A DNA stretch of 64,000 bases from Actinomortierella ambigua (Eukaryota > Mortierellomycota > Mortierellomycetes > Mortierellales > Mortierellaceae). The stretch covers positions 1-64,000 of the forward strand of contig JAAAJB010000056.1 of assembly GCA_016098155.1 (NCBI GenBank), in the 5' to 3' direction. The notes under the pieces are model-generated. The model was not told the origin of the DNA, did not search any database, and saw only the letters and a program-made list of their open reading frames with translations. Positions 1-30,281 of this stretch are shown here, in pieces (position 1 is the stretch's first letter; every line of letters starts with the position of its first letter). The position numbers were made by a program, and so were the translations under genes.

Positions 1-358
1 CGTATCCCGCGGTAGTGTCCACAGAGGCCTTGGGCGGAGGCGTGTTCTTTGGGTTTTCTGGCCAGTCTCTGTGGCGGTGGCCTCTCGTCTTTGCGCTGGG
101 TTGGTTGGTTTGCAGTTCACTCTTCTCTCACTCTGTTCTCTCCTAGCTCCACCGTCTATGACCCCTCAACATTCACGCAATACCAAACATGCGTGAATCG
201 GTCCCCTCCACCCGAAGCCTGGCCCACCCTCCGGCGGTGCTTCCACAGCACCGCATATACGCAAAAAGGTATGCATGCTACTTGATGAACATGACAGACT
301 GTTTGATGACAATGAGGTTTGTATTCCTAATGCTCTTGCTTGCTGTCTATATCCCTAG

Positions 359-701
359 ATCCAAGTCTCAAAGAACTCCACCAAATCACCAAAACAACAC
401 CCAAATGCCACCGCCTTCCTCCCTTCCCCCAAATCGAACCACCGCCACTTGACCATATCCACCTCCATTCCTGCCTATCCGGCACTCCATTCCTGACTGC
501 TCGGCACCTCCACTTCTACTCATCCGGCACCCATGACACCCACAATACTCCAAAGAACCAAAGAAAAAGAAAGGGAAAAAAAGAACCCTTCCCACTACAC
601 AAGCTATCCAGCTCCCCCACACACTCAAACACAATCCACATCCTTCCGCGCTATCCTAATGACAATTCGGTCTGGCACTTGACCATTTCAGGCGTGTCAA
701 G
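359..701 (+). repeat. Module A, copy 1 (with A-rich tract)
   Basis: This block contains a segment reading C-TTCTAC-CATCCGG-ACCC followed by CACCCACAA-ACTCCAAA and then an A/G tract. The same order recurs at 3598-3690 inside block 3515-3888. The A/G tract is a diagnostic feature of all four A blocks (about 560-590, 1564-1592, 2743-2955 and 3640-3690). Confidence 0.55.
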
Positions 702-805
702 GTATGTACTCGAGGAAGAGTGGCAGGCGGATGAAATTGTGAAATGTCCAAACGGAAAGAACGTATGACTGACTCTCCTCATATTCTCCTTGACCATGTG
801 TGTAG

Positions 806-996
806 CCCATTAGCCTGCTCCTCGGCAAGGGCCAGCACTGGACGCACTTCAAAGCCTGGATGACCCAAGACCGCCGGGTCAAGTGGCAGGGGTGAAGAAC
901 CTGGGCCTGCCTGCATCATATGTATTGGCGCCCAGTCTTCCATGACCTCCAGCCACGCGACCGGGGACCACTCTCGCTGAACCTCTAAGATTTAAG
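806..996 (+). repeat. Module B, copy 1
   Basis: This block is clearly related to 1825-2017. Both share a central GGTCAAGTGG-type segment, then GAAGA, CTGCCTGC, TGGCGCCCAGTCTT and CACGCGACC-GGGACCA in the same order, and both end at an AAG|GTATG donor. Between the shared anchors the copies differ by small indels (4 nt between GTCAAG and GGCGCCCAG), so no single reading frame is kept across the block. In the frame reading V-K-W both copies stop at the same aligned TGA. Confidence 0.65.
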
Positions 997-1117
997 GTAT
1001 GGATCTTGATATTTGCTTGCTCTGTAATGAGTAGAATGAGTGGGAGCGAAGCGACATGTCGAAAGCGTTCTTTGCCAACATTTCTTTCCTTGCCAAACGT
1101 CTTCAATATCTGACTAG

Positions 1118-1228
1118 AACAATCTCATGTGCCTCACAAACAAGAGCCAACAACATCAACAGCGCATGAAGAGGAAGTTGGTCCCCAAGAACCAACTTGG
1201 TGGCAGCCACAGCCATAGAGGTTCCAAG
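1118..1228 (+). repeat. Module C, copy 1 (with its downstream intron)
   Basis: The end of this block (GGTGGC..CCACA..GAGG.GTTC.AAG) matches 2159-2268. The match continues into the following intervening sequence: both copies have GATGATGCACA-like and GTGAAA segments 60-80 nt after the donor. Similarity across exon and intron means the duplication happened at DNA level and carried splice sites with it. Confidence 0.55.
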
Positions 1229-1335
1229 GTACATTACATGCCCATGATGGACTTGGATGGTCAAGTGGATGATGCACAAGTGAAAAGTTTGATAGCTAAT
1301 CATATCTTCTATTTTTCTCCTCTGCCTTCTCGAAT

Positions 1336-1720
1336 AGCTCCTATTCGGCCCATCCAAAGGCCTTCACTGGACCTCCCGCCACCTAGCGGTCCCAAGCCTC
1401 GGTCATGCCCCTATACCACTCGCTCACAGCCCATCATGGTCACCACGGCCATCACTGCAACGCATATTGCGTCAAGGGGCATGGTCAGCATCCTCTACCA
1501 CACCAATCCCTACACAACACAACATACCACGACTCCCCATCACACAACACACTTCACACAACACAAAGAAAAGAAAAGAAAAAAAAACACCGCCCACACA
1601 CACACCAGTCAGTCTCTCCTCCTCTACACTACACCACAAACACATCATATGCAGCCGCATCCATCTCCCCTTCGTACCCTACAACCCAATTTCCAACACA
1701 GCCATCCAAGGTGTTCAAAG
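1336..1720 (+). repeat. Module A, copy 2
   Basis: It begins at the AATAG acceptor and shares CAAGGGGCATGGTC and neighbouring CAC-rich sequence with 2590-2630, then an AAAGAAAAG tract. Two donors are possible at the end, CCAAG|GTGTTC (1711) or CAAAG|GTACTT (1721). Confidence 0.5.
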
Positions 1721-1824
1721 GTACTTGTGCCAGAAGGACTTGCAGGTAGATGGAGCTGAACTGGACGTGAAGATGAAGAATGTTCATGGCTAACGGTCTC
1801 TTCTTGTTCTCCCTTATCCTCTAG

Positions 1825-2017
1825 CCCACTCTTCTCCTCATCCAGGGCTACTACCACTCCGTCTTTCTCACCTGGATGGCTCAAGGCTGCCAGGTCAAGT
1901 GGTGGGAATGAAGACTGTGGATCTGCCTGCCTGCTTCCTTGGCACTGGCGCCCAGTCTTCGGCGGCCTCCCAACACGCGACCAGGGACCAATACCACCAA
2001 GCCTCGGACACTCAAAG
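1825..2017 (+). repeat. Module B, copy 2
   Basis: Partner of 806-996. It begins after a CTCTAG acceptor and ends at CAAAG|GTATGA. The similarity covers most of the block at an estimated 60-70 percent by eye, which suggests an old duplication. Confidence 0.65.
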
Positions 2018-2158
2018 GTATGAATGGCATGTGATGTTCTATGAGGATGACCGGGCTGAATGCGCGGAGTTGTAGTATTGCGAAGCGGCCTTTGACTGAT
2101 GCCGACACTGCCTTCGTTTCTCAATGTCCCCTCTTGGATTCGATCATACTCTGGTTAG

Positions 2159-2268
2159 TTGCAATCCTCATACACCAAGAGAAGAAACAAGCATCAATAT
2201 CCACGCTCCAGTCCGAGGAATGGTCCTCAGCACCAAAGGTGGCTACCACAACCCGAGGGGGTTCAAAG
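2159..2268 (+). repeat. Module C, copy 2 (with its downstream intron)
   Basis: Partner of 1118-1228. It starts after a GGTTAG acceptor, ends at TTCAAAG|GTATGG, and is followed by the related intron ending in CGCTTAG at 2406. Confidence 0.55.
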
Positions 2269-2406
2269 GTATGGTACATTTCCACGAGAAGCATGCAGCG
2301 GATTGACTTTGTCACACAGATGACACATGCACAGGTGAAAGGCGTCTCATACTGACATTATCTTCTCGCTCTGGCCCACCTTGGACATATTTACCACCTC
2401 GCTTAG

Positions 2407-3186
2407 ATCAAGAGCTGGCTTCTGACCTGGTCCGATACCAGTCTACGAGTAACTCTACTCTCGTATACGAAGGTCTATGCCAAACCCCCCTCGAACCACC
2501 ATTCGGTCCTCAAGTCACGGCCATGCCCTGACGCCTCACGCCAATATTTGCGAAGGCCAAAATCCATCCTTCCCGCGGTTGATTCTGCGGCCAAGGGGCA
2601 TGGTCTATGCACTGTGCAGCACCTCAATTCTCACCTCACCTTCCCATCAAAGACAATCCACGCGAAGCCACTACCACACTACTCTTTGCCTTCTTCGCAC
2701 CTGCACAGTGCATGAAAAACCAACTCCACGACCAACCATCCAAAAAAAGAAAGAAAAGAAAAAGAAACAAAAGAAACAAAAGAAACAAAAGAAAAAAAGA
2801 AAAAAAGAAAAAAAGAAGAAGGAAGAAAAGAAAAAGAAGAAAAAGAAGAAAAAGAAGAAAAAAAGAAAAGAAAAGAAGAGAAGAAGAAAAGAAGAAAGAA
2901 ATAAGAAAAGAAAAGAAAAAGGAAGAAAGGAAGAAAGAAAAGAAAAGAAAAAGAACAAGAGCTACCACCACAACAACCATAACTACCACTCTACTATCAT
3001 CACCATCTATATCAACCATCCTCCTTCTCAAACCATACTCTTGCCCGTCGGGCACCTCCACTACACCAACAGCACTTCAAACAATCAAAAAAAAAACAAT
3101 AACCAACAGCGCTAGCTACCAGTAGGCGCAGCCCGTTCATGCGGGCTTTCTTCAAGCAAGGCATATGCTGTCTTGAGCTTCAAAAG
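2407..3186 (+). repeat. Module A, copy 3, with expanded purine tract
   Basis: This is the longest block of the array. Its length is explained by about 210 nt of AAAGAAAAAGAAG-type sequence at 2743-2955, a local expansion of the short A/G tract found in the other A blocks. The block ends at TTCAAAAG|GTATGT. An internal weak donor (GAAG|GTCTAT at 2471) could split it. Confidence 0.45.
2743..2955 (+). repeat. Polypurine (A/G) tract
   Basis: About 210 nt made almost only of A and G in units such as AAAGAAA and AAGAAG, with pyrimidines nearly absent on the + strand. Such a tract could form triplex or affect nucleosomes. It sits inside module A copy 3. Confidence 0.9.
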
Positions 3187-3514
3187 GTATGTGCTAGAAG
3201 CGCCAGTGTATGGAACATGTAATCCTGTTAATTAGATGACAAGTTCATGACTAAACAGCTTACTTTGCTTCCTTGTGTTGTTGCCTAGGCCACATCTACC
3301 GCCTCGATTCCAGTCATTAAGACACTCGCGGGTCGGCTTCGCTGAAACAAGACAGCTGGGGGACCATTCTTTCTCATGCTTGATCACACAAAGGTATGGT
3401 GTTTGGTGAATGAGGTTAGGAGTGAGTCTGGTGGACTGGATGATACATTTGTGTGCTGAATGACCCTCGACTGACATGATGCCTTTTGATATACTCCATC
3501 TTCTTCCTGAATAG

Positions 3515-3888
3515 AACATTACACACGATGCACAAAGCATGACACAAGAACAACCCCACTTCAACAAACCACCACCACATTGCTATCCCCATGTCCGCTT
3601 CTACCCATCCGGTACCCCACTGCACCCACAACACTCCAAAAAATCAAAGCAAAAGAAAAAAAGAAAAAAAGAACAGGAGCCACGGTCACGAATACCACCG
3701 TCATTACTCCACCTATGCCAACCACTCTCCTCTTCAAAACGAAACCACCACTACAATACTATCTCCCTCTCTACTCCAACACTCCAACAAACAAACAAAG
3801 CAGAACACAAACACGGACATAAGCAAAAAATAAAAAATAATATATTAAAACAAAGAAATAAGACCAACTAACAGCGCCAGCAAATTAT
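3515..3888 (+). repeat. Module A, copy 4 (last recognisable block)
   Basis: It follows an AATAG acceptor and matches module A copy 1 over the CATCCGG..ACCC..CACAA.ACTCCAAA segment and the A/G tract. It ends near a GTATGTG donor at 3889. No further block was recognised to the right, where RAD54B upstream sequence begins. Confidence 0.5.
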
Positions 3889-4677
3889 GTATGTGTTTGT
3901 GAGAAGGAGAGAAAGAGAGAGGACAAGATGGATAGAGGAATGCTACTCATTGTATCGACTAGGCTGTGGGTCGGCTCTGTATGGGACAACCTTGTTAGAG
4001 GCAACGAATAAGTTTGCAGAGAAGCACCTTTCTGGCAACGAATAAGAGAATTCGAGCTCCGATGGCGAAAGAGGGGTGGCAACAAATACAGCCTGTCCAC
4101 GTTAACGTCAACGTCGATCTTGGACGCCTGCAGCCACTCGCTTGGTCTCGCCCCACCCTGTGGGCGAGAACTGTGTCTTTTGCGGCTTGAGAGAGAGCAA
4201 GAAATAGGAAAGACTAAGCTGTCTGGCTACAGAAGCAAGGAATGCTGGAGCCCGACCTAGAAACGATGTGATATGACCTTGGAGTACAGGATCCGCACCA
4301 CAGCTACACACTGCAGAAATCAACAAGTGAACCAATGCAGCGGCAGCGGCAAGTCCAACAGCATCTTGCAGGCGCACCCAGATATTAAGCGACGTCCAGG
4401 CGGGTAGCGGCAGCCATGCTCTACCCTTTCGTCGACGTCGTCGTCGTCGCTCAACTTGAGGTCTGGCGGTTTCAGCTCTTCAGGCCCCGTCGACAACAAC
4501 TGAGGGACGACCGTCGATGATCATGACTCCTTCCAGCCAGGGGCTCAATCTGTACCAGGAGTCCCTGGGAAATAATCTTGTAGTGGCGCAGCGCCATAAG
4601 ACAGTTCGTATGAGAGAGAGAGCGAAAGTCCCTGGGTGATCACTGTTCTTTCCCCACACCCTTCATGAACATTCAGA
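3889..4677. promoter_or_regulatory. Upstream region of the RAD54B gene
   Basis: No supported gene. It holds mixed sequence including a (GTC)n-like run near 4427-4449 (cgtcgacgtcgtcgtcgtcg). Short frames on either strand lack splice or protein-family support. It should contain the RAD54B promoter and 5' leader. Confidence 0.45.
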
Positions 4678-7600
4678 ATGCGTAAGGCCCTTGCACCTTC
4701 GCAGATGAAAAGGAAATCGAGATTGCCAGCCGAGGATGTCATTGAGGCATCGTTGGCCGTTTCTCCGAATGGCACCAACACCAATTGTGTTTCCACAGGG
4801 TTGGTGGCAAAAAAGTCCATTCAGGTGCCGCGTGGCATTCACAGACCAGCCCCATTCAAGGCTCCATTCAAGGCTCCATTCAAGTCACCTCTCAAAGCAC
4901 CAATGCCGTCGTCTGCTTCAGCCGCTTCCTCTAGCAATGGCCAAATGGTACACACTGTGCCAGCTGTAGAGGCAGCTGCAGCTAAAGGGAACTCGGTTCC
5001 TTCCGTCACACCAGCGCCCAAAGATAAAGACAGGGGCCAAGACGTGAGCATGTCGGCAGAGCCAGCTCCAACCTTTAAGCGCATCAAACTATCCACATCG
5101 ACAATCCACCCGACCAACACGTTTCGATCGCCCTTGCTGGGAGCCAAGTCCCCCTCAGGCTTAGTGGAGGCCATTCCGAAGGAACCAATGGATCTCTCAA
5201 CTGATGCCCCGAGCACGTCAGGATTTGATAATTGCTTCAGTGTGATGTGGTACGGACGTTTACAACTGTTCTTCAATGAAAAAAAAACTCGAACCTCTCT
5301 ACATTATACTAAGAACACGTGTCTTTATCAATACAGGAGAAAAAAGACGAACAAGAAGCATCACACATGGGATGATGATGGTATGTCTATTTGGTTTTCT
5401 TCGACAAACCTGCATTTTACAACGGGTGCCTTTGATTGTGGTCGCTAACTTGTCGCCATTCTTTCAAGGTGTGCTACTCATTCGAGGGACAACCGGAGTA
5501 CTCAAGGACATGCAAGGCAAAGAGTAAGGAGCCTTGTGCAGAAGTGTAGGTGCAACATAGCTGTAAGGTCGTATGACTTACATGATCGCTTTTCCTCAAT
5601 AGTGTCGCAAAGGGAATGATCGGAACACCCAACGACGTACAACCTGGCAACGAAATCTCATTTTGTGGTCGTGTCGTGGAGGTAAGCTTTCTAATAACTT
5701 TCGATGTGGTACACCTCTTTTTGGGTGACGATCAACAACTGACCTGTTGTTCTAGATCGTGTCCATAGTGCCCATGGAGGACTTTAGGCGTGGTCGTTGC
5801 TTCATGGCATCAATGTCTTCAGTAGCCTCGACACCGACTCCTCAATCGATAGCCACGCCAAAATTTAACAAGAAGCATACTCTTGCGGTCACGCAACAGC
5901 ATACAGAAGAAGTTCCGAAGACTTTCAGCCCACAGCCTCGACACAGCCCTGATACCCCTAATGCTATTGTAATGCCTCGCCCTTCTGCAGACCACCCGCG
6001 TCAAAAGGGCCGAAACAGTACCAAAAGAGTGCCTGGATCGAGTGGTATTGTTGATGTGGTGGTTGATCCGGTCCTTGGCCAGCACCTGCGCCCACACCAA
6101 AAGGAGGGAGTCAGGTTTCTCTACGAGTGTATGATGCAGCTTAAGGAGAACGTTCATGGCCAAGGGGCCATCCTTGCGGACGAGATGGGCCTTGGCAAAA
6201 CACTGCAAACCATCACACTGCTTTGGACGCTGCTCAAGCAAAGCCCATTCTACGAAGAGGAAAAGGCTGTCATCAAGCGGGCCTTGATCGTATGTCCAGC
6301 ATCGCTGATCTTGGTAGGTTTTGACTGCGAGACTACTCAATGGATAGTTAATTCTGACAGCGAGGCTTTTTCCAGTCCTAATTTAAGCTTATTCATTATG
6401 TTTTGCCTGACGACTTTACTGAAATATGTACCATGACTAGAATTGGAAGCGAGAATTTAAGAAATGGCTCGGGGATGAGCGCTTAAAAGTGTTTGCTGTA
6501 GACGCGAAATCGACGCTGACAGACTTTACCTTGGGGCGTGTGTACCCTGTTATGATCATCGGCTATGAGAAAGTAAGTTTATAGGACCGTCTTCCATGTT
6601 TTTTCTTTTTTTGTTTGAGAGTGGAACACTCTACTTACCACATCGTTGTACGCCCATAGCTTCGCATGGTGCAGGAGGAGCTTAAGAGTGCAGCATTTGA
6701 TATTGTTATTTGTGATGAAGGCCATCGTCTGAAGACCTCGAATATTAAGACAGCACAGGCAATCCGGTCGCTTCCGACACGTCGTCGGATCATTCTCAGT
6801 GGTACCCCTATCCAGAATGATCTGGGCGAGTTTTTCAGTATGATTGATTTTGTCAATCCAGGGCTCTTTGAGAGCTACAGTGCGTTTAAGCGGCTTTTCG
6901 AGGATCCAATTGTTCGATCGCGCCAGCCCGGTTGCTCTATTGCCGAAGCGGATCTGGGGAAAGAGCGGTCTCTCGAGGTTAGTACCTCTATCTCTCTCAC
7001 TTGAAACCTGATGCAAGTTCTGAATACCTTACTCACTCATCCTATTCCCTTTTGCTGTTTTTTTTTTTTAGCTCACAAATATTACAAGGCAGTTCATTCT
7101 TCGACGATCTGCCAACGTCAATTATGAATATCTCCCAGCAAGAAGTATGACAGATAGCCCATCTTTCACGGAATGTGTGGATGCATCGCAATGGAAACCT
7201 ACAGCTTACCAAGCAAACGTATCGATTGTTCTGTCGAATAGCTGACTTGGTGGTGTTCTGTCCACCCTCAAATCTACAAGCAAAGTTGTATCGCCGTATA
7301 ATAAGCTCGTCTTTCTTGAAAAGCTGTTTTTCGTCAGACAGCAGCCGTCATCTCACTTGCATCACAGCTCTACGCCAGCTCTGCAATTCCTCGCTATTAA
7401 TCAAGGAGCAAATTGAGGTATGTGATACACACCCACAGTGTGGGGGACAGGCAGCATGTTGAATTCTATGAATCATTTCCTAACGGCATCTCGCCTAACT
7501 TTTGCTGATGTTGCTCAGGCGCGAGAAAATATGACATCCGAAAGCTTGTTCGACGGGCTTGCAGATCTCTTGCCTGAAATCGAGGAAGAGCAGATCAGCC

Positions 7601-9510: not shown

Positions 9511-12500
9511 ATGGAGCCTCAAGGACACCACATTCATTCCAACTCCGGAGGCGGAGACGCCGATGCCATTGGAACAGGAACTACTCTTGCTTCACTGAAG
9601 AATGAACAGCCACCACAAGAGTCATTCAATGCCTCTGCCAACAGCTCGACCGTCACCACGCAAGAGACGAACAGGCAGCAGCCGCATAGACCTCGCCCAC
9701 TGGACCTCCATCAATCGCGCGACAGTACCTCAGCGGACGACCAGCGGCCAGGGCAGCAGGGACAGGGACAAGGGGGCGGGCGCGAGAACATTGCGGCCAC
9801 AAAGGCCGCGCTCAGTGCCTGGAAGTTCCCATCCACCCCGAGAGTAGCGACGCCGACGTCCTTTGACCGAACGTTGTCAGGCATCGGTCTTCCTGCATCA
9901 GCAGACCTCGTGGCGGATGCCAGGGCTGGGAGCCCCATGCCCCTTGGCATGCCAGGCAGGACGCTAGATGGGGGCTCGGACATTTATCATTCCACGGCTG
10001 CACATGGACACCTCCCAACTCAAGGCTACACCTCGGTGCCGCCACAATCATATACCCGGGACGGTGCCATGTCGCCCAGAATTGTCTTTCCACCCTCCAG
10101 CATCTCAGAGCCAATACGAGTTGGCGACCAGGGCAGCGACTTTTCTTCCTCCTACCAGGCACATAGCAAGCACAACAGTAGCCAGGCGAGCAGTGCACAC
10201 GAATCCACGACGGATTATCAGCCACGGCGGGACATTCCCCTTGTTCTTCAGCAGCATGTACGACAGCACGATGTGGCTCAGCCGGGGCATGTCCCTATTC
10301 ACTCACCCGCAACGGAGTACGGCGTCGCATTTGAGCACGGCAACGCTCCACCACAGCAGCTTCAGACACCTTCCGAATTTGCACTCAAGATGCTGTTCAC
10401 GCAGTTTGTCAAGATGGCAGAGGCAAAATTGAACGCCATGATCCATTTACCCTTGGTAACTGAGAAAAAAAAAGAGGCGCGCTTATCGCCCGTCCCTGAT
10501 TTGTTCTTTGGCCACCTCAGTTTTTTGTGTTACCTTGTAATATTTCCCGATGACTGACTCTTGGCCGGTGCTACCTGTCCTCCTTTCCCCCTTCTCCCCT
10601 GCTACGGGGGGTTGAGGAGAAGGAGGTGTGTATGCATTCTCCCTTTGTGTATCCTGTAAATAGCAAGACTCTGAACCCGACATTCTCTCACCGCTGAAGC
10701 AGGGCGTGGACCCCAAGTTTGACAAATTGTTGGCATCCCTAGGATCCGTCGCCCGACATCGTCCCAAGCCAGTAATAGACTGTGTCATGCTGTGGCGCAA
10801 GAGCAGGATAGAGGCAGTGGATGATCATGCTCCAAAGGCAACATCGTAAGTGAAGTGCGCAATAAGTTTTTTTTTTTTTTTTTTTTTTGGTTGATTTCTT
10901 TATCTTACTGCTGTACAAAAGTAGTCATTTCCATCGCAACCGGGGACCGTTGAGGGCTTTTATCTGTGCACATTTTGCTTTAGGATGCGAAATATTTAAT
11001 CTTTCGATTTTACTCTTTCTATATCTCGAATTTAGGAGCGAGTGGTCATACAAGTACCGCGATCCAAAAACCGTTATTCGGGAGCGGAAATCAGTAAGGA
11101 ACACTGTTAATGCAGCATGCAGGCATTGATCACGCTTACATTCTATTAAAACTTCCAAGTGAGGGGAGAAAATTATCGATAGCTTTCTGACCTTCGACTT
11201 TGTGTCTTTAGGTTGTTTCTCTGTACATCATGTCTAGATCGCTGATTGAGATTGTTCGACAGGTGGATACGCTCCCCGATGAACTGGGATTCAGGCTTGA
11301 GGAGACAGTGTTCAACCAACTGGAAAATGTGGACCCGTATGTTGGTTGATTTTCGTCCACTGCTTTGTTGGTATGCAGGCAAGAGCGATAATAGCACTAG
11401 ATGAACTTACTTGGATTGCTCTTCTGAATTTCGTCATACTGCAGGGAATTTATTCAGCGATCGATGAACCGGACAGCCAACATGAATGTGCTTGTCGAAC
11501 TAATGGGATCCTTGTCGAACGTCAGGTTTGCCACAGTCAGCGACCGGTTCATTGCCGAACTGGAGAAGTACAACAAACTTGGCGCTCAAGGCAAGGACAA
11601 GGACCGAGAGAACCGCATGGAGATGCTCATCCGCGGCATGCGATACCTTACGCTGAAGGTGAGCATATCTTGCAACTATATTTGAAAAAAAAAAGACACT
11701 GAAGCGATAGAGAAGCCACAGAGCCTGGTTTCTTTCTCATCTGATTGACTGGAGCGATTCCGTGGCAACAAATTAGATATACCCAATGGACTCTCTGGAA
11801 GAGTCTGCAGATTTTTTGCAGAGCTGTGCTCGCTTTTTCAAGACATCCAGAGGCATCCGAATTAAGCATGCCTATGCCGAACTTTTCGTTCAGCTTTTGA
11901 CACCCGTGGCAAAGGTAACAACCAGTATCTTCGTGTACATATCGGTTCAGAGCGTACCACAACAATGCATGATCCTGACCAACCGTTGCTTCTCGAAATA
12001 ATAATACTAATAAAAATAGGTCGCGGTTGCGGAGGTGAATCACCCCGGATGGTCAAAGACAGTCGAGATATTATACCCTAAGGCGCGCAAGATGAGTTAC
12101 AAGCCCCGACACAGCCAAGTCGCATTCCCACTTTTGACAATTCTCTTGTGCGTCAGCAAGAAGGACTTTTTCTTCAAGCATTTCACTTCTGTTTTTGACT
12201 TTTTCCGGGAGAAATTCAAGGAAAAGGGCACGAGAGCCATCTCTGCGAGCTGCATGGTCCAGCTCATGTGGGTGTTCCTCTTTCGGTATTCAGACGGCAC
12301 CAACAGTACTTTCCGAACACTCGACATTATCATCAAGACCGTCTTCCCCAGTAACCGCAAGGCTGCCTCGTTGATGGATGGCTATCTGTGGCAGTTTGTC
12401 CGCATCGTGCACTTTATAGGCATCAAGCATACCGACTATGCCACAGGATCGATCATCTTTCCGTTGCTGAGCCTCGAGCAATTGTCGAATGTCATCTTCA

Positions 12501-15500
12501 CCAATCTGACGTTGGATATGATATCCCCCGAACGGATGACGGTTGCCCTCCGGGCTTTTATGCTCATTCTTGCAGATGTTGAGAAGGGTGGATCGACACC
12601 AAAGTTCCCGGCGATGGCGGATGTTGGTTTGAGTGCTGCGGACCAATTTTCGTCGGATCTTTTGGAGCCCAGGATCATCAACAGGGCCGGCATGAAGGAT
12701 ACGTACGAGCAAGTGACGGCCGTTCTGGGCAAGATTGCCATTGCTTGCGACCGCAACTATGGACATACGCTCATCTTGGATGAAAAATACACCACGACAA
12801 GGAGCATGTTTTCAGCTGCGGCGATTATGGCGACGGCGACGGGCGATAGTGCGTCGTTGGTGGTCCACCAATACTCGACGTTTGCAGTGTCGTACTCTAA
12901 GGAGAAGCAGACGTACTTTGATCTGATGAGCTCGTGTGTGAACTGCTTCCCTCGCTGCATGCCGTCTGGAATTCCCCTCATGAAGTTGGTGGAGATGTTA
13001 TCACGATACACAGCCCATGTCGATCCCGATGTTCGGAAGGCGTCGTGTGCTGCACTGGTCCGGATCGCAAAGCAGTGCAACTCACAGGTGGTGCTCACAG
13101 GCTATGCAACCTTCCTTTCTACCATCGAAGACCGACTTTCTGAGCTGCTTGCTGGGCTGATCGCTTCAGGCACCAGCACCTCCTCGTCCTCGTCGTCGTC
13201 ACATCAGGAAGAGGGCCTCTTGTCGATCTACATCCAGATTCTAGAGGCCTGCATTAAGGAGAAGTGCAGCAAGAGACAGCAGGCTGGTGAAGCAGATTAC
13301 CCTCGGATGAATGCTGCTACGACGAACACACCGGTGGCAAGCGAGGCCTTCCGTTTTGCCCATGCCTCACTCACCCCCGAGGTGAGTCTTGAGACGCAAG
13401 TGCGAGAGACGGAGGAGATTGGGCTTTTGTTCCTATGCAACCAACAGCCTGGCATCCGGAAGGAGGCCATTCGCATCCTCAAGCTCGCCGCTTCTGCGGA
13501 GCTGATGATGGAGCAGGCCAATGGCTCCTCAAACGGGGGCCATGGCGAAGGAAACAAGGATTTGGTGCTTCCAGCCAGTGTTTCCGTTCGTCCACGGACC
13601 GAGATCACCCGGGTGTACCACCTGCTCCAGGCGGCCGCGCCAGAACTCTTGCATATCGACGAGTACGGAAACGCGCTGCCTGAATGCACGCTGGCCACGC
13701 ACGAGTTGATCCGTCTTCAGATTCACCACCAAAAGGGCCAGAGTGAGGTGTTCTCTCAGCTGGCGGAGAGCGAGCACGACATCGACGTTGGGATCTGGCA
13801 GTACTGCTTCCCACGACTGATCAGCAAGATCTTTAAGCATTTTCCAGAGATCTGCGAGCCATGCCTCGAGATGGTCAGCAAGAGGCTCATGCAAATCTAC
13901 CCGGCCATTGTGACCACCACGGACGTGGCGCCCAACACCACACTGGCATCAAAGTTCTCCATCAAGACGACCCAGGTGGCGACAGATGAGCTTGTGGAGC
14001 AATGGCGACTTTACCTGATCTTTGTCTGTTCGACGATGACAAAGATCGACCACCAGTCCTCGGCCCACCAAGGCCACGGTCGCAAAAAATCTGCACCGTC
14101 CGAAAAGATTTCTTGTGCTCGCGACCTCTTCCGACTGATTCTGCCGTTGCTTCACAGCGACCGAACGATCATCCGCGAGTCGGTCGTGGACGCCCTGGGC
14201 CGGATCAACACCCACCTGTACAAGGCGCTTCTCGAGGATCTGCAGCCTTTCCTCTTTATGGTCCACGAAGAGTTCCGGTCCAAGAATGGGATCAAGCCAC
14301 CGTACCAGGGCAAGCGCAACAAGAAGCTCGATCGCCTGCGTGCCGAGGTTGCTCGCATTCTTGCCTTCACGGCCCCGTTGCTCAAGAATGCGTCGCTCGT
14401 GCATGACGAGCACATCTTGTCATCGCTCATCAGCTACGTGAAGGAGACGTTGCTGTTCCTGCTCGACTCGGAGGTGCAGCACGAGTGGGAGTATGTGCGA
14501 CTTCGTACGCACTTTTGCGGGTTCGTTTCTCATCTCCACAACGGCATCTCTGTGATTGGTGGGCCGGAGACGACCATGCCCTTTGATCTGCGCCTGGCCC
14601 TCTTCCGGTTGTTTGAGGACTGGTGCGGGCATGGGCCCAATAGCTTTGCTGGTGACAACCGATCGTATTGGTTTGGCCTGGACCTGGTCAAAGATGATGA
14701 GGCTCAGCGGTCTGAAAAGTCTGCTCTCGAGTTTGCTGCCCTGAGCGCAATGGCTTCTCTTTGTGTAAGTTTTTCTTTATTGGCAGGGTGGAAGCAAAAG
14801 CGGGGGGGGGGGCTGAAAGGCTGGCGAGAAGGTACAGAGCCGTTGTCTGACGATTGTTCAATCATACCGAGTATTAATGTTCTTGGAGGGGTTTTTTCCT
14901 GGTCTTTTCTTTTCTGCATGCGAAATAGCAAGGACCTATCAGTAATCCATCTCCTCCGGTGCGGGTAGAGCGTTCGCGTTCAACATTCAACATTGTCGAT
15001 GTCTTCAAGTGGATCGATAGTGTCTTTAGTAGCCCTGACCCGAAGCTACATCCAGTTGCACAGTAAGTTGGCGCTTAGCGGGGTGACCTAAAGAGTAATA
15101 TGAACAAAGCGTTGGGAGCAGAGGGCTAAACTATTTTGGGCTGGTTGATACATTTCAATTTCACACTCGCCTCCAATTTTTTTTCTATTAGGCGGGCGCT
15201 CGAGGCCTTGCTGGTGTACAATCAAGATCAGGAGCGGTTGCTGGAAGATGCGATTCACCAGTGCTATACAGGCGATCAGAACCAAAAGTTCACGCAAGGC
15301 CACTTCTCAGCCCTCGTTGACATTGTTGTCCGTATCGAGTCTTACCCGTGCCATGTGCACCAGATGCTGAGTCTGGCACTGTTCAAATGTGGCGACACCA
15401 GCGTCCACATTCGGTCGCTGGCCATCAAGCTGCTCAAGGTCATCGAGGCACGGTACTTTGCGGATCCATGTGCCGGTGAGTACGAGATTGGTATCATCAA

Positions 15501-26245: not shown

Positions 26246-26679
26246 GGTGGGAGGGGGTCGTCTCCTATTTCCCTTTCCTATGCCTTTCACCTCCCCGCCC
26301 CACCTCCCATCCTAGAAACCCCACTCCTTACAAAGTTATCATTCACCAAATTCACTTACCATCACTGCTAGCACTTTATTTGCGTACTATATACCCTTTT
26401 TTGAATGAACCTGCAACAAGCACTTCCGCTGTTTAGTGTGGTGTAATAGTTTGGTTCGCGCTTTGGCCTCAAGGATTTGTCATCAGACCAACATCACCGA
26501 TGCATCATATTAACTCCTCGCCATAACTAGCCACGAATTTTGATAAAATCATTGCGCTTGAAATCACAATTCCTTTTTTTCCAACTGCCCTCAAGTTCAC
26601 ATAAACATCCACCACCTTTTATTTTTTTTCCATAACACAATTTCACTAGGCCTACAAGACGCACGATCGTTGGACCATC
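26246..26679. other. Intergenic, PHD gene 3' flank
   Basis: AT-rich compared with the genes. It holds the PHD 3' UTR and the left flank of the transposase relic. I looked for terminal inverted repeats of the Tc1-like element here and in 27345-27640 and saw none. Confidence 0.5.
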
Positions 26680-27478
26680 ATGCCACGGTTTACTAGCCAG
26701 CAAAAGCACCGTGCCTTATCCCTTCTTGCTGAGGGCAACTCTATCGAGAACGTCCGGAAGCAGGTCAGAATGTCTCATACAACGGTGCACAGGATCAGGG
26801 CGACAAGCAAGGAAAACATCCCACCATGCAAGCCAGGCCCACCAGCAGCAGCCTCGGAGAGAACGAAGAAGCTGTTGGCGCGCAAGTTTGCTACTGGCCA
26901 ATTCACCAGACTCGAGCAGGGTCAGCAGCTCATCCATGACGTGGAGGGCAAGGACGTCGGCAAAGCCTGCATTAAGAAGTACCTCAGACAACAAGGCGTC
27001 AAGGCGTACGTCAAACAGAAGAAAAGCCCTGAGCTTAAGAGATAAAAAAAATACCATCGCACCCTCAAAGAATGCGAATTTGCTCTGTCTCCACAACGAG
27101 TGAACAGTAGAGCAGTAGGCAGTAGGGGGTTTGTCTTCTCTGTATGAGTGCCATTTCGGTCGGACGGGAGAGGGTGGGAGGGCGGTCCTATGGTCGCCAG
27201 CACTGCCAAAAGAAGCCAACTCGCAAGCGTCTAGAGTCTCATCACATGACGAGAATCCATGGCCCAGTCAATGTGTGGGGCTGTGTCACCTATCAAGGTC
27301 CGATGAGGCTCGTTGTCTTCGATGGCGCTATGACCACTGAACGGTAGATGGCCGTGCTAGGTGACGAGGCCAGAGATAGAGAGAGCACAGTAGCAGGTGC
27401 GATCGAAGACTCTTGTTGTCGCCTTCCTTTTGGACTCTTATCGGGTACGATCATTGATATACCCATGAAAGAGCCCTG
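26680..27478 (+). pseudogene. Tc1/mariner-type transposase relic
   Basis: 26680-27045 keeps an open 121-codon N-terminal part with helix-turn-helix features (FTSQQKHRALSLLAEGNSIENVRKQ, MSHTTVHRI), as in Tc1-type DNA-binding regions. The frame then breaks. Around 27135-27165 the remains of the catalytic segment (family form FSDE.HF) read FS then ECHFGR in two frames, so a small frameshift lies at the first catalytic Asp. A third piece reads HGPVNVWGCVTYQGPMRLVVFDGAM (27255-27335) and is followed by an in-frame TAG before MAVLGDEARD. No terminal repeats were found. It is a dead copy. The N-terminal frame being open is probably chance, although co-option of a DNA-binding fragment cannot be excluded. 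Confidence 0.8.
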
Positions 27479-27643
27479 AATCTGTTCAACGTTGGACGCA
27501 CAAGTGTCGGGTCACTATATTTTTTTCTTTGTTTAGTAGCATCGAATGGACGACTCATGCGATATCTCAACAATCCTCTAATCATTTTTTTTAAAAGAAG
27601 ACATATATAATACCATGGTTTAATGTGTTACATTTTCATAAAT

Positions 27644-30281
<2,638 letters not shown>

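Follow-up and report, generated by a model that had tools for sequence, protein, structure and literature searches.

What kind of gene, if any, is represented by the array of splice-bounded blocks at the very start of contig JAAAJB010000056.1 of the fungus Actinomortierella ambigua? The window analysed here comprises 64,000 nucleotides (positions 1 to 64,000 of the forward strand) and is the beginning of a contig of 92,307 bases (C512) in a genome assembly of 33.83 Mb and 846 contigs. An original prediction, made from the letters of the window, had recognised a periodic array between positions 147 and 3888 and had offered two explanations for it: selection for the splicing of a repetitive non-coding RNA, or a gene family that had lost its coding capacity and retained its splice sites. 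The comparisons described below lend support, at the level of sequence, to the first of these explanations and disfavour the second. As we read them, the array is a member of a family of spliced, modular non-coding RNA genes that probably lie by chromosome ends, are read away from those ends and are under selection to be spliced, an interpretation to which we assign a probability of roughly 55%.

On the plus strand, the interval 147-3888 can be divided into ten exon-like blocks, in the order E1-A-B-C-A-B-C-A-X-A, which are separated by nine GT-AG introns measuring 90 to 141 bases; all of the predicted blocks are present, with three boundaries moved by 1-2 bases. The first recognisable exon, E1 (147-268, bounded as CCTAG/CTCC ... 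AAAAG/GTATG and with a relative at C57:107580-107890), is preceded by only 146 bases of contig and followed by intron 1 (269-358), part of which is matched in contigs C25, C177 and C57. The first unit consists of the C/A-rich exon A1 (359-701, with GT-AG bounds), intron A-B (702-805), exon B1 (806-996), intron B-C (997-1117), exon C1 (1118-1228) and intron C-A (1229-1337), and the second of A2 (1338-1720), B2 (1825-2017) and C2 (2159-2268) with their GT-AG-bounded introns at 1721-1824, 2018-2158 and 2269-2406. Exon A3 (2407-3186), in which there is a long purine run (about 2742-2955), is separated by an intron (3187-3288) from the 105-nucleotide exon X of the 3' part (3289-3393), and a last intron (3394-3514) leads to A4 (3515 to about 3888), the last recognisable exon. 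Family similarity stops at about 3884. The A exons are A- and C-rich (G 0.09-0.17, T 0.15-0.18). The predicted A starts at 359, 2407 and 3515 are retained and that at 1336 becomes 1338; of the nine donors, for which AAG/GTATG had been expected throughout, two (1229 and 1721) are GTAC; and the recurrent A-B-C order applies to two units, after which the third A is followed by the single X block and the fourth A comes last.

The repetition goes beyond chance. The two A-B-C units of the window align with each other (530-1247 versus 1536-2287; 61% identity, E 3e-35), the B and C copies being alignable and the likeness continuing through the introns, and a search of the genome with B alone gave at least 17 matches, the query and the second B of the window included. 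All such counts are lower bounds in which the query itself is counted each time; they amount to at least 10 for C with its flanking intron (1100-1330), at least 4 each for A2 and for the 5' part, and at least 21, in 12 contigs, for the 3' part with X (3100-3540). Two further modules were found in relatives of the array, the 5' module D (first in contig C69; at least 10 matches) and the 3' module T (first in C96; at least 12 matches). Judged from these alignments, the family combines repeated A, B and C modules with variant modules on the 5' side (E1 or D) and on the 3' side (X or T), and it recurs in two layouts, the one seen in the window (E1, A-B-C units, A, X, A) and the one seen in C96 (D, A, B-C units, A', T exons). 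The B motif had no match in viral_contigs; its one bacterial match in genome_contigs was judged to be a chance match and was not used.

The evidence that the splicing signals have been kept comes mainly from an alignment of 18 B-C copies, drawn from 28 profile-matched segments of which 8 partial ones were omitted, with two rows that merge two segments each; both B and C exons of the window are among the copies, and X and its two flanking introns were compared in a separate alignment of 12 rows. The donor GT is found in 18/18 copies for B and in 18/18 for C, the acceptor AG of C in 17/18 and that of B at the same place in 13/18, and in the five copies that lack the first B acceptor AG another one follows 8 or 9 bases further on. 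All 6 of the donor columns at +1 to +3 are invariant, versus 11/233 of the other intronic columns (one-sided Fisher p=5e-8), and column conservation is higher in exons (0.765) than in introns (0.653; one-sided p=4e-11), p-values that overstate independence because the copies are related. A CTRAY branch-type motif, located 13-65 nucleotides before the following exon, occurs in 15 of the 18 copies in the A-B intron, in 12 in the B-C intron (the first B-C intron of the window, at 997-1117, lacks it) and in 13 in the C-A intron, for which the acceptor was chosen by a pyrimidine rule and the choice in C334 is doubtful. Mononucleotide shuffles lead one to expect 3.9, 3.8 and 3.7 copies, respectively, so that the excess is 3-4 times in all three introns. 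Donor, branch motif and acceptor are complete and conserved between copies (for acceptors, within 9 nucleotides), as the original prediction had held for the splice signals, the exceptions being module T of C69 and C82. Because these signals are conserved, exons are better conserved than introns, and B and C exhibit no codon periodicity, selection for splicing appears to be the better supported of the two options.

A further indication comes from the distribution of losses. In the B-C and X alignments, the 24 rows from contig ends at which the modules read inward retain 95/95 sites, versus 13/19 in the six other rows (C96 left, C423, C263, C140, C220 and C358; p=1e-5), where a B acceptor was scored as kept when an AG lies within the first 9 nucleotides; when only the exact column is accepted for B acceptors, the figures are 92/95 and 11/19 (p=2e-5). 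Module D retains donor and acceptor in 9/9 rows, eight of them inward and one (C766) outward, the tenth match (C48) being too short for the count. In module T, the six inward rows with sequence retain 16/24 sites at the exact column and 21/24 if an AG 1-3 nucleotides off is allowed. For all modules together, 132/135 sites are kept at inward ends versus 15/21 elsewhere (p=2e-4), or 124/135 versus 13/21 under strict position (p=8e-4), a contrast that was spotted after the data were seen; among the six losses outside the inward ends, C220 has another AG nearby. Contigs C67, C57 and C177 and the B-C part of C52, which enters through module T only, stand outside every splice-site count, and no score was given to the A4 acceptor of C25 or to any C-A acceptor. 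The contrast between the contig ends and the remaining copies holds in these alignments, although it is not absolute.

Could the array nevertheless be the remains of a protein-coding family, in which tandem exon units were duplicated and the frame was lost while the splice sites lingered? The better conservation of exons than of introns would be expected of such a family, as would the disappearance of some splice sites in module T and in internal copies. The original prediction that indels break every frame was also too sweeping, since B2 is open in two frames and the spliced A2-B2-C2 is open for 268 amino acids in one frame and 247 in another, a length reached by 4% of composition-matched controls; this point counts against a non-coding reading. 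However, two overlapping frames that are open together point to a low density of stop codons, and across the 18 copies every frame of B, and likewise of C, is closed in at least one. Lengths of B fall into classes 0, 1 and 2 modulo 3 in 4, 4 and 10 copies, and those of C in 7, 3 and 8, and most of the indels in the B and C exons of the 18 copies are not multiples of three. Scoring for three-base periodicity in the differences between copies, which was carried out for B, C and D, detected none. Moreover, there were no Pfam matches at E 0.01 for the ten of 46 listed open stretches that were submitted, and no protein match at E 1e-3 for the 268-amino-acid query, and in the window no Rfam model matched at gathering score; the homology to a known protein that would mark a family of pseudogenes was not seen in the stretches given. 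The retention of all 95 sites in the B-C and X modules of inward ends is hard to square with decay, and the lost-coding option is disfavoured because the copies differ by about 25-30% in their exons with no excess at third positions. We regard a decayed coding family as improbable.

Module D was separately considered as a coding block. About 114 nucleotides of it (for example at L018:20-330, where it adjoins a (GGAGGTGAA)n-type run) are free of indels in nine copies and about 89% identical, and one plus frame is open in 9/9 copies. That stretch is also open in one minus frame, there is no codon periodicity, and neither Pfam nor PDB yielded a match, so that coding is not shown and the candidate was set aside.

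Related modules were compiled by hand from the module searches at 38 places in the genome, of which 24 are contig ends with inward-reading modules and 4 are ends with outward-reading ones, when an end is taken as the terminal 2.5 kb, a cut that was set after the data were seen (two-sided binomial p=1.8e-4). The inward ends are those of C512, C69, C240, C845, C575, C96 (right), C334, C426, C25, C82 and C52, the eleven that were fetched at length, and of C560, C631, C72, C7, C58, C48, C89, C114, C410 (left and right), C19, C176 and C702. A count restricted to query matches within 1 kb of an end gives 24 versus 0, which is flattering because family sequence reaches the last base of C766 and comes to within 410 bases of the left end of C96. 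A contig break within a dispersed gene should leave both halves, and the scarcity of 5' halves suggests that there is little unique sequence upstream of these copies, as at a chromosome end. The excess of inward modules thus suggests a subtelomeric family, and on the strength of these positions we consider it rather probable that the family sits at chromosome ends.

Besides the relatedness of the copies and the after-the-fact nature of the splice-site contrast, several of our observations weigh against the interpretation proposed here. An AG lies 8-9 nucleotides inside exon B in 15/18 copies, so that its presence in the five copies mentioned above is not special in itself. Among the inward ends, module T has lost its first donor and acceptor in C69, where the intron has been replaced, and one acceptor, by deletion, in C82. 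In C96 (left), C766, C220 and C758 the modules lie no more than 2.5 kb from an end and face outward, and ten places are internal (C67, C57, C423, C177, C263, C140, C358, C229, C784 and C664); with a cut of 3 kb, C784 is added to the outward ends and the count becomes 24 versus 5 (p=5e-4). No TTAGGG repeat was found at any contig end, the single match in the genome being internal. Finally, contig C410, which is only 28,216 bases long, has inward 3' modules at both of its ends (1-1200 and 26500-27900). Unless C410 is itself a tiny chromosome or some linear element, it argues against the telomeric reading, since a chromosome of 28 kb would be needed if each such end were telomeric.

The last two of these observations also favour the view that the same spliced non-coding genes lie not at chromosome ends but beside some other long repeat at which the assembly broke off. 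Against it, the contig ends fall within different modules (D, A, B, C and X), with no single border, and assembled 5' flanks are rare, having been seen in C57 and C766. This placement seems to us unlikely. Runs of the (GGAGGTGAA)n type at some contig ends were considered as candidate telomeres and rejected: they are G-rich when read inward, which by the usual convention for the telomere strand is the wrong strand.

The cutting of most copies on their 5' side by a contig end, which leaves their first exons unseen, also invites the explanation that the modules are non-coding exons of a larger protein gene, with the coding exons upstream in the unassembled part. In C57, however, the 5' flank of the related sequence is assembled, and a stretch of 400 bases about the point where similarity begins has no match elsewhere in the assembly. 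Such a gene would furthermore carry many introns past its stop codon, which is unusual for a messenger RNA on account of nonsense-mediated decay. We find this explanation improbable. The dispersal of the copies, their tandem A-B-C units and the presence of microsatellites are, on the other hand, what might be expected of a mobile or satellite-like repeat in which motifs resembling splice sites are incidental. Yet the terminal inverted repeats of a transposable element were not in evidence, no inverted pair of at least 25 nucleotides being present in 1-6000; the orientation of the copies is skewed at contig ends; and sets of donor, branch motif and acceptor are conserved in three introns. A repeat of this sort is, in our estimation, a very improbable source of the array.

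In an all-against-all comparison of the fetched stretches, the main block shared by the eleven ends stops 1.7 to 3.9 kb from the contig end; small shared patches lie beyond it at five of the eleven, and C560 shares only 0.26 kb. A tree of the 18 copies places one copy each from C96 (right) and C845 in the clade of C69 (support 0.999) and the second copies of both in a clade with C426, C82 and C334 (support 0.990). The two copies of C240 are near each other, and one copy from the window joins C575. Exceptions aside, the pattern fits the copying of whole arrays between loci.

Two relatives have peculiarities of their own. The internal one in C57 (L048:7581-7981) has E1, its intron and a few bases more, after which the sequence is unshared; it would appear to be a truncated or minimal member of the family, and the gene downstream of it may be kinase-like. 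In C177 (L052:4600-5260), an A-type exon is followed by about 600 bases of a degenerate CATCAC/AACC repeat, which ends near AATAAATA and may be the 3' end of a related transcript.

Do the transcripts predicted from these copies have a conserved structure? When sequences were folded singly, four A regions had z-scores of -1.6 to -3.1, two parts of B had -1.4 and -0.2, and one C had -1.9. A TGCCC...GGGCA inverted pair, with arms roughly 65-80 nucleotides apart, is present in A2 and A3 of the window (1338-1494 and 2407-2613) and in 16 other A copies, and RNAalifold predicted five base pairs from the 18-row A alignment, four of them invariant in 18/18 rows and the fifth in 17/18. No compensatory change in this hairpin was found among the 18 A copies, which is to be added to the points against our interpretation. 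Relative to column-shuffled controls, the 16 rows of B had a z of -3.3 and the 18 rows of C a z of -9.8, but for C the baseline is near zero and the structure small.

The next gene downstream of the array, from 4678 onward, may be RAD54-like, and a conserved gene at 12035-14965 is 65% identical to the cell morphogenesis protein PAG1 of Mortierella sp. GBA30. The introns of the array are host-like in length, because three introns of this PAG1 gene, located by aligning the protein, are about 115 to 193 bases long.

From these comparisons we infer a scheme in which copies at contig ends, taken as chromosome ends, would be transcribed away from the end into a spliced non-coding RNA, in which selection, or steady copying from active donors, would keep the introns working, and in which the RNA might act locally near chromosome ends, on chromatin or on exchange. 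Engagement of the spliceosome that feeds RNA interference (RNAi) is a possible, speculative route for such an action. Splicing itself might even be the function: the repeated introns of the end arrays could load spliceosomes onto centromere-ward transcripts and thereby bring in RNAi or chromatin factors, by which the ends would be silenced or their exchange guided, the modules being gained and lost like interchangeable parts. We put this forward as a doubtful conjecture.

Several known systems can be compared with this scheme. The lncRNA-TARE of Plasmodium falciparum is described as a multi-copy non-coding family, homologous between ends, on 22 of 28 chromosome ends, its two dominant transcripts (1.5 and 3.1 kb) being read towards the telomere (PMC3218844). 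The likeness would lie in homologous non-coding copies, which are found here at 24 contig ends, if these are chromosome ends. The comparison is by description only, and in the part of that account drawn on here lncRNA-TARE is described without repeated exon modules (PMC3218844), whereas the gene in the window has ten predicted exons and the family is mostly read away from the contig end. In Saccharomyces cerevisiae, subTERRA and ARRET are subtelomeric non-coding RNAs, some of which are read towards the centromere, and subTERRA originate inside Y' elements and are unstable; splicing is not mentioned in the main text of that source, and the part drawn on here describes no array of repeated exons (PMC5932542). 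A chromosome-end non-coding RNA of another kind, TERRA, is mentioned in passages of both of these sources (PMC3218844, PMC5932542). TERRA carries telomere repeats and is transcribed towards the chromosome end. Telomere repeats were not seen in the window family: in a search with a single motif, TTAGGGTTAGGGT was found at one internal spot of the genome only. The contig-end modules of the family are mostly inward, which would be the opposite direction to that of TERRA if contig ends are chromosome ends. In Cryptococcus, according to a review, the targets of RNAi triggered by stalled spliceosomes are transposon transcripts with different splicing kinetics (PMC6232588). The splicing of a repeated transcript could likewise feed RNAi here, but unlike those targets the window family has splice signals that look complete.

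Among the matches listed from the open-licence literature, no report of spliced exon-module arrays at chromosome ends was recognised, and the listed literature matches included none on subtelomeric RNA in this fungal lineage. To our knowledge, the chromosome-end non-coding RNAs described so far are mostly not spliced from repeated exons. A dispersed family with many introns and no protein would therefore amount to a natural experiment on the upkeep of splice sites in non-coding RNA. The interpretation favoured here predicts that reads spanning splice junctions would come from the copies at contig ends and that few or none would come from the decayed internal copies. If it is correct, either the RNA in its spliced form or the splicing process would be useful to the cell.

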